This document shows, piece by piece, positions 44,735 through 59,234 of a stretch of 64,000 nt of DNA. Under the pieces are notes generated by a model, which saw only the letters and a program-made list of their open reading frames with translations, did no database searches and had not been told where the DNA came from. The first letter of the stretch is position 1. Each line of letters opens with the position of its first letter. Made by a program: the position numbers and the translations under genes. Source of the DNA: Pseudobacter ginsenosidimutans (lineage in GTDB: Bacteria; Bacteroidota; Bacteroidia; Chitinophagales; Chitinophagaceae); contig NZ_CP042431.1 in assembly GCF_007970185.1 (NCBI RefSeq), positions 868,001-932,000 of the forward strand, read 5' to 3'.

Positions 44735-44746
44735 CGGTTCTGGTAG

Positions 44747-44894
44747 CCCTGGGGGATAGGTGAACGCGGGCTGGAAAACAAACCAGTGCGGGAGGAATTA
44801 TTTTGAACTGTGGTTGGTTGGATGGGGCGGTTGAATTACTATAGAGCTTCTTCGCTTATGTTTTCAAGGCCCTGTTCACCTATCCCTCCACGGC
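44747..44894 (+). repeat. Palindromic repeat element, copy A
   Basis: This approximately 145-bp element has terminal arms GGGATAGGTGAAC (44753-44765) and GTTCACCTATCCC (44874-44886), perfectly complementary, continued inward by GGGC..GAAAAC (44768-44779) and GTTTTC..GGCCC (44860-44872). The 80 bases between the arms include AAACCAGTGCGGGAGGA and a 50-base core (44810-44859) identical to copy B. It starts about 15 bases past the stop codon of the methyltransferase gene and reads in the same sense. No coding frame. Confidence 0.85.
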
Positions 44895-44897
44895 ATG

Positions 44898-45127
44898 GTC
44901 ACCTTGATGGGGTAACAGTTTTTTGCATTCCCTATTGATGTAGCAATGAACTCACGGAAATGGAGCAGCGCTATTTTTTGATGAATCGTTTGTAATGTGA
45001 TGTAGAAGAGATGTTATAAAGGACGAATGTCTCTTTTCAGAATTCCTGAAAGTATTATTGACTGAAAAAATTCAAACACAGGGAAGTTTAGCAATATGCA
45101 TAAACTGTTACATTTTATCGGAGTGAC
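44898..45127. repeat. Inner inverted repeat between copies A and B
   Basis: GTCAC..GAT..GTAACAGTTTTTTGCAT (44898-44928) is matched in reverse at 45096-45127, with a perfect 10-base GTAACAGTTT/AAACTGTTAC block. It makes the whole 44747-45356 region a nested palindrome. The 167-base centre (44929-45095) has no gene. Confidence 0.7.
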
Positions 45128-45208
45128 GCACTCTTTCCCCCTCCTCCTCCACCAACAGTGTGTATGAAGTCCGGGCGAACCAAACTGTTGCACCCTGAAA
45201 GTGCCATG

Positions 45209-45356
45209 GGCTCAGGGTTATGAATAAACCCGGCCTATGAAAGATAAGCGAAGAAGCTCTATAGTAATTCAACCGCCCCATCCAACCAACCACTGCTCAT
45301 AAAAAATCCTCCCGTGCTGGTTTATTTCATCAGCCGGTTTATCATAACCCTGAGCC
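45209..45356 (-). repeat. Palindromic repeat element, copy B (inverted relative to A)
   Basis: Terminal arms GGCTCAGGGTTATGA (45209-45223) and TCATAACCCTGAGCC (45342-45356) pair over 15 bp without mismatch and share no sequence with the arms of copy A. Inward they continue as TAAACCCGGCC..ATGAAA and TTTCAT..GCCGGTTTA. The core 45244-45293 is the exact complement of A's core (50 of 50). The element ends 8 bases from the stop codon of the minus-strand gene at 45365 and, in that gene's sense, has the same orientation as copy A has to its gene. About 80 bases between 45127 and 45209 are unassigned. Confidence 0.85.
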
Positions 45357-59052: not shown

Positions 59053-59091
59053 GGTGTTGCATTTAAACTGACGCACCCTCAGCCCATTCCA

Positions 59092-59234
59092 GCAAAGGGG
59101 TAAAATAATTCAGGCATTGAAAACATAAGCGCCATAGCCCGGCTCAGCACCAAAGCTTCATCAAACCATACACTGCTTTTCAAAAATTCTCCCGCGGTGG
59201 TTTGTTTTCCAGCCGGAATTATTTACCCCTTTGC
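59092..59234 (-). repeat. Palindromic repeat element, copy C
   Basis: Terminal arms GCAAAGGGGTAAA (59092-59104) and TTTACCCCTTTGC (59222-59234) pair perfectly and extend through TAATTC with one bulged A; they share no sequence with the arms of copies A or B. Read on the minus strand the interior has GGCTGGAAAACAAACCA, GCGGGAG and CGCTTATGTTTTCAA, which are the boxes of copies A and B, while the middle has diverged. It ends 6 bases from the stop of the minus-strand trans-sulfuration gene and reads in that gene's sense. Confidence 0.8.

Follow-up and report, generated by a model that had tools for sequence, protein, structure and literature searches.

The window analyzed here is a 64,000-base stretch (bases 868001-932000) of a single contig of 7,797,595 bases. 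It contains a solo hairpin element, copy C, on the minus strand at 59092-59234, measured from stem base to stem base. Upstream of C is a gene for a Cys/Met-metabolism PLP enzyme, and downstream, on the same strand, is a CHAD-domain gene. The 5' outer arm of C, GCAAAGGGGTAAA (59222-59234), pairs with its 3' outer arm, TTTACCCCTTTGC (59092-59104); beyond these perfect 13 bp, which the original prediction had placed correctly on the minus strand, pairing continues inward past a one-base bulge. Within the arms, again on the minus strand, lie the 5' core GGCTGGAAAACAAACCA (59198-59214), which forms the 5' side of an inner helix (P2), the word GCGGGAG (59189-59195), found in 61 of 111 copies in the genome, and the 3' core CGCTTATGTTTTCAA (59117-59131), which forms the 3' side of P2. 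A downstream tail at 59068-59091 (minus strand) ends in GGGTGCGTCAG, and other copies have related tails.

The window has two further copies, A and B. Together they make up a single facing unit at 44746-45356, an arrangement that the original prediction had missed, along with the solo status of C; the unit is also present at the orthologous junction in a congener (G004). The left end, copy A, is on the plus strand at 44746-44894 (model match 44754-44884), and its tail, ending in GGGGTAACAG, occupies 44895-44918 on the same strand. The right end, copy B, is on the minus strand at 45209-45356 (model match 45219-45348), with a minus-strand tail ending in GGGTGCAACAG at 45186-45208. The spacer between the tails (44919-45185) contains GACGCACTCTTTCCCC at 45125-45140; similar motifs, in either orientation, were also seen in a few other spacers (L006, L012, and others). 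The gene ahead of A belongs to the tetrapyrrole methylase family, and the gene ahead of B encodes 132 amino acids with no Pfam match. A 48-nt stretch of the loop is identical between A and B in the genome that holds the window (G000), and at these sites both differ from the A and B of G004.

The resemblance of A, B, and C is not due to chance. Against a model built from 28 copies, these three among them, A scores 121.7 bits, C 109.8 bits, and B 109.7 bits. The core words had been described as common to all three copies. This holds for A and C, since the 17-mer GGCTGGAAAACAAACCA and the 15-mer CGCTTATGTTTTCAA have exact matches in these two only (two each); B has the variants GGCTGATGAAATAAACCA and CGCTTATCTTTCAT, with which the inner helix is still paired, as read by eye. 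The outer arms of A, B, and C are mutually different, the base of each stem is no farther than about 12 nt from a stop codon, in the sense orientation, and no copy is followed by a T-tract, each in agreement with the original prediction. We likewise agree that a plain terminator is unlikely: the 3' arm looks like that of an intrinsic terminator, with a T-tract, at only 3 of 110 ends genome-wide, and we rejected this function for the element.

A profile search of G000 with a model from 28 copies, in which 150 of 2,159 candidates were scored, returned 115 places at E values up to 0.1. Of these, 111 full copies score at least 60.9 bits and 4 partial copies score 26 to 32 bits. A repeated search of the 77 fetched loci gave the identical set plus one chance match. 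Joining matches less than 1.5 kb apart produced 38 pairs and 39 singles, and the ends face each other (plus then minus) in all 38 neighboring pairs, at distances of 119 to 891 bp. One pair contains a partial copy, and full copies amount to 37 pairs and 36 solos. An end is about 180 bp long, with a copy-specific outer stem of about 25 bp and, inside it, the shared helix P2. The loop is rich in G and T and spans about 54 nt, and the tail finishes with a GTGCAGCAG-like word. The word GTGCNNCA occurs in the tested stretch of 43 of 111 tails, compared to a mean of 0.72 and a largest value of 4 after shuffling. Similarity among copies begins about 10 nt outside the model, which is the base of the stem, and often stops at about 165 to 170.

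At two loci, L125 and L151, the whole unit including its spacer is common to both, in opposite orientation, and the similarity stops at both stem bases. Spacers are otherwise nearly unrelated, the exceptions being the tail words and, in a few of them, the GACGCACTCTTTCCCC-like motif. An open reading frame (ORF) that, by eye, resembles an ordinary host gene lies within three of the 38 close pairs, and apparent chromosomal genes, as judged from their ORFs, lie within two larger pairs of facing ends, of 5.1 and 6.7 kb. At L098, L132, L138, L148, and L159, the foot of the 5' arm is tandemly duplicated just outside the element (e.g., CTCGCAACGGGATAT). These duplications are possibly the trace of slippage or of an insertion step.

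The arms differ from copy to copy and still match within a copy. An RNAalifold consensus of 28 copies has 16 pairs, 10 of them with changes on both sides, and among all 111 copies covariation is strongest in two helices, P1 (the outer stem) and P2. In a variant form from a more distant congener (G001), described below, both sides have changed in 14 of 17 pairs. The median pairing score is 48 for a copy's own arms and 20 for randomly drawn arms; random draws, which could hit the copy itself, reached 48 in 2 of 111 cases. We saw no long-range covariation for a third helix in the loop among the 111 copies, where the signals are local. Arm pairing is better in pairs (0.859, n = 75) than in solos (0.792, n = 36; P = 0.045) and similar at ends that follow a gene in sense (0.846, n = 69) and ends that face a gene start (0.814, n = 34; P = 0.63).

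The mismatches within these helices bear on whether DNA or RNA is folded, as near-strict Watson-Crick pairing is not expected of a typical RNA helix. At outer arm positions 1 to 13 we counted 1,283 Watson-Crick pairs, with isolated mismatches of 8 G.T, 19 A.C, and 43 other. P2 in G001 has 193 Watson-Crick pairs, no G.T, and 5 A.C, and changes between orthologues gave 3 G.T and 11 A.C (n = 42). Counted by model columns, G.T outnumbers A.C by 60 to 22, but two columns (8 and 20, R1 alignment) supply 44 of the G.T, against 4 A.C; columns 30 and 31 of the G001 alignment, adjoining P2, together have 17 G.T and no A.C. An overall excess of G.T (168, versus 64 A.C) was considered as a sign of RNA and set aside, since it mixes conserved columns with poorly aligned flanks; by region, the excess is absent from the outer arms and carried by few columns. 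The helices are thus mostly strictly Watson-Crick, and a few columns act like a sense strand that folds on itself. Separately, the sense strand of the loop fits a loose two-tier G-quadruplex pattern in 71 of 111 copies, versus 37.5 expected (300 mononucleotide shuffles; largest value, 49), which is suggestive only of a predicted quadruplex.

The original prediction noted that A, B, and C all lie behind genes, in sense. Surveyed genome-wide, with genes defined by a simple longest-ORF rule (100 amino acids), this placement is a strong tendency with many exceptions: the neighboring gene reads toward the element at 76 of 110 ends (sense ends), and the element faces the start of a gene at the other 34. 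Among the 76 sense ends, 42 lie no more than 25 nt from the stop codon or overlap it. Five ends overlap the last codons, each by 18 nt, and at L084 the arm itself supplies the stop codon (read by eye). By gene context, 20 of the 37 pairs are convergent, 15 tandem, and 2 divergent.

Intrinsic terminators are common on the gene side of the element. One lies between gene and element at 20 of the 27 sense ends that are 25 to 120 nt from the stop, compared to 0 of 27 on the other strand; at sense ends nearer than 25 nt, the counts are 3 of 42 and 2 of 42, respectively. A run of five T's is found upstream of 57 of 111 elements (AAAAA, 14 of 111); by position, it precedes 23 of 27 sense ends at 25 to 120 nt, 16 of 42 closer ones, and 16 of 34 start-facing ones. 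Downstream of pairs, terminators are no more frequent than on the other strand (8 of 75 for both); downstream of solos, they number 7 of 36, versus 4 of 36 on the other strand. The warning here is that a few examples can make such hairpins look like terminators or 3'-untranslated region (3'-UTR) elements.

The family is narrowly distributed. Across six genomes of the genus, we counted 114 copies in G000, 105 in G004, 109 in G002, and 22 in G001, and found no copies in G003 and G005. Among 294 genomes of the family, strict filters left matches in 5, representing 2 of 101 genera. The second genus contributes a genome (G179; completeness, 84%; contamination, 4%) with two to three weak copies (L263, L264, and L265), which could be real kin or stray contigs. 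An exact-pattern scan of GTDB matched only Pseudoflavitalea rhizosphaerae KACC 18655 and the metagenome-assembled genome BIN25. Plasmid and phage collections gave no match, nor did IMG/VR when scanned with one exact pattern, and Rfam had no match in the window at its gathering cutoff, save that a search with the C stretch gave one chance match (E = 9.2). We found no account of this repeat in the literature, subscription papers aside.

Comparison of orthologous loci identified both shared and element-free sites. The A/B unit is present in G004, whereas in G001 the two stops are 9 nt apart with no hairpin between them; G003 and G005 also have short element-free junctions, and G002 is not assembled there. 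None of the five congeners has the hairpin of C behind the corresponding gene. In G002, a stretch like the tail of C is kept behind this gene, suggesting that C was lost there. Gene order downstream of C is altered in G003. The orthologous place in G004 (L215, G004:C39) is occupied by another palindromic repeat, rich in GC and resembling ACTCGCC.GGAGGCGAGCGACTG, which also occurs inside the G004 unit orthologous to L098 (G000:984749-985168). Over about 390 kb of synteny between G000 and G004, four of five G000 loci are shared and G004 has no new copy, which implies little recent movement.

We measured conservation within orthologous elements, of which 43 were tried over all relatives, 39 kept, and 4 dropped for bad alignment; one G002 row (L168) was also set aside. 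Between G000 and G004, identity is 92 to 93% in the arms, 88 to 90% in the core, 86% in the tail, 83% in the spacer, and 78% in the loop, against baselines of 70% at four-fold sites and 77% at third codon positions; aligned non-ORF sequence gave 91%, a figure inflated by keeping the aligned parts alone. Between G000 and G002, identity is 84 to 88% in the core, 75 to 78% in the arms, 75% in the loop, and 73% in the spacer. In 26 G000/G004 elements there were 16 double changes that keep pairing, 27 changes that break a pair, and 15 that mend one. The arms therefore look constrained at short distance and, at longer distance, free to change while pairing holds.

The cores behave differently from the arms. 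The two ends of a unit are alike in loop and in inner core beyond their likeness to other units (P = 0.0004 each by permutation, n = 37), whereas their arms are not alike beyond chance (P = 0.83 and 0.98, n = 37). The copies of G001 represent another variant of the core, type II; those of G000, G002, and G004 are type I. A type II model from 25 G001 copies found 59 copies in that genome, forming 20 pairs and 19 solos, and all 20 pairs face. Two G001 units combine a type I end with a type II end. Two type II-like copies were also seen in G000, at 5573127-5573279 and 5820509-5820660.

Despite this change of core, 17 of 27 G001 copies occupy gaps that also hold an element in G000 (14 G000 loci), where the 27 are a non-random sample found with the type I model, the count is a raw one, and the 77 G000 loci represent about 4% of the chromosome. 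A further copy, L272, was excluded from the 17, as its two flanks map to one side of the G000 element at L087. In 16 type II rows, the core similarity of G001 copies was 0.63 to the same-site G000 copy (best end), 0.62 to other G000 copies, and 0.68 to other G001 copies. Sites that are shared, with cores nearest to those of copies in the same genome, indicate that the places are old and that the sequences have been replaced in concert. An alternative is independent reinsertion at the same places in G000 and G001.

In looking for a partner that could move the element, we found no autonomous partner or transposase. Y1_Tnp genes are present in all six congeners, including the two without elements. 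RAYT is not supported as the mover, as no element adjoins the examined Y1 genes (L170, L171, L177, and L178, out of L170 to L178) and REP tags are lacking. On the 5' side, GTAG occurs in 11 of 111 copies (15.6 in mononucleotide shuffles) and CGTC in 4 of 111 (8.3); on the 3' side, the corresponding counts are 8 of 111 (14.8) and 5 of 111 (19.5). No target site duplication was seen by eye at the L125/L151, A/B, and C junctions, and most copies are old. RAYT-like Y1 genes have open frames of about 200 amino acids in G003 (L177) and G001 (L178), and the G000 gene (L171, at 2023873) has two TAA codons. The open L177 and L178 frames include HIHENP, which we take to be the expected catalytic tyrosine motif. 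A smaller Y1_Tnp protein of 142 to 172 amino acids (L170 and counterparts) occurs in six congeners; in G000 its gene fits tightly between two genes that, by eye, appear to belong to an aromatic pathway. This protein is perhaps domesticated.

The reading we favor, at about even confidence, is that the family is a non-coding, two-ended palindromic unit of REPIN- or MITE-like build that is now mostly inherited in place. Units would once have moved as folded single strands, aided by a trans-acting factor that we infer, and would today be passed on mostly where they lie, with core variants spreading among existing copies by conversion or replacement. The crowding of ends behind stops and terminators may mean that least harm is done there or that insertion was favored there, and solo copies such as C may be leftovers of units or single ends. 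A mobile element was one suggestion of the original prediction, and it is supported by the short element-free junctions in relatives and by the whole unit that lies at two loci in opposite orientation. Between G000 and G004, the arms are more conserved than the spacer, which suggests constraint after insertion and counts against a mobile unit; this is not so between G000 and G002. Such constraint would suit a host boundary element, whose hairpins, as extruded DNA or as RNA 3' ends, selection would maintain as markers or insulators where transcription units end. We regard this as possible, if rather unlikely. It is consistent with the 76 of 110 ends in sense, 42 of them within 25 nt of a stop or overlapping it, with sites kept among G000, G002, and G004 and, for 17 of 27 examined copies, G001, with G000/G004 arm identity of 92 to 93% (versus 78% in the loop, 83% in the spacer, and 70% at four-fold sites), and with 16 compensatory double changes in 26 orthologous elements. 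However, 17 of 37 pairs do not lie between convergent genes, 34 of 110 ends point toward the start of a gene, and arms are no better at sense ends. The family is also absent from G003 and G005, the neighbors of A and B manage without the unit there and in G001, and the hairpin of C is missing behind the same gene in five congeners.

Another idea, which we consider doubtful, is that these are facing DNA hairpins at fixed ends of transcription units, whose core is read by a clade-specific factor, with stems that drift and cores rewritten in concert. A change of factor would lead to rewriting of the core across dispersed sites, as in type I versus type II, and the outer stems would need complementarity alone, so that their sequence could drift freely. 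The 3'-UTR element proposed originally, or a source of small RNA, acting in the sense of the upstream gene, appears improbable. The sense bias (76 of 110) stands in its favor, as does the excess of G.T over A.C in a few helix columns, which folding of the sense strand predicts. Elsewhere the helices are nearly strictly Watson-Crick, with A.C more frequent than G.T in the outer arms, in P2 of G001, and in the orthologous changes. Moreover, at 20 of the 27 sense ends that are 25 to 120 nt from the stop, an intrinsic terminator precedes the element, sense ends show no advantage in arm pairing over start-facing ones, and Rfam has no match. It is very improbable that the element inserts into preexisting terminator hairpins, with arms that are the old terminator stems, as had also been proposed. 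Arms that differ in each copy, the many copies behind genes, and the terminators near many of them would fit, but the terminators lie upstream of the element and not around it, and just 3 of 110 3' arms have a proper T-tract. The arms covary, have a GGATATGAA-like family consensus, and in some cases recur elsewhere (L098 B and L109 A), the element-free G001 junction is 9 nt with no hairpin, and no element-free site that we read carried a terminator with those arms.

Dispersed bacterial repeats usually retain their sequence and lose their places. Here, 17 of 27 examined copies keep their place between two congeners while the core has changed family-wide. If confirmed, this concert would suggest that the elements are actively copied or that a reader acts on them in trans. 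If the core is in fact read by a clade-specific factor, the family would be a co-evolving recognition system linked to boundaries of the chromosome or of transcription units, not a decaying repeat. With many copies per genome, the family would also serve as a natural experiment on which kind of hairpin, DNA or RNA, is being kept.

Several known systems are similar in part. ERIC, BOX, and NEMIS repeats are intergenic, 100 to 200 bp long, and able to fold; compared by description and not by sequence, they resemble the present elements in size, folding, and place, but their arms are shared and not copy-specific. The attC site of integrons is an imperfect hairpin read by IntI, with conserved R'' and R' boxes. 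Likened by description, its conservation is the reverse of that seen here, where arms vary and the core is conserved. A Bacteroidetes subclass of TnpA-Y1 (2.6) is described with "atypical secondary structures" that flank the gene and have copies elsewhere in the genome (PMC6006769). By that description it is comparable to the present family, from the same phylum, but here neither the RAYT-like genes in G001 and G003 nor the degraded G000 gene has an adjoining element. Bacterial MITEs, as reviewed in PMC10969869, are likewise non-coding and intergenic, with inverted ends, strong predicted stem-loops, and tens to hundreds of copies. Here, too, inverted ends bound a non-coding unit, similar in core and not in arms, but most of the present units exceed 500 bp, both ends of a unit are hairpins themselves, and we found no direct repeats or parent insertion sequence. 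REPINs are inverted REP doublets moved by RAYT (PMC3116915, PMC3733652); doublets are reported to be better kept than singlets (PMC3116915), and REP elements to crowd at 3' ends and supply stop codons (PMC3733652). Both families consist of inverted doublets outside genes that do not code for protein, show compensatory changes, and enclose a spacer of lower conservation, located near the 3' ends of flanking genes and sometimes providing the stop codon. REP sequences are 20 to 40 bp, whereas the ends described here are about 180 bp with a copy-specific stem of 25 bp, have no GTAG/CGTC tag and no element beside the examined Y1 genes, and persist at many sites while the core is replaced. Thus, the build and placing of the family are REPIN- and MITE-like, judged by tag, size, and flanking gene it is not a REPIN, and it is unusual in combining fixed sites with arms that vary freely but match themselves and cores that change in concert.
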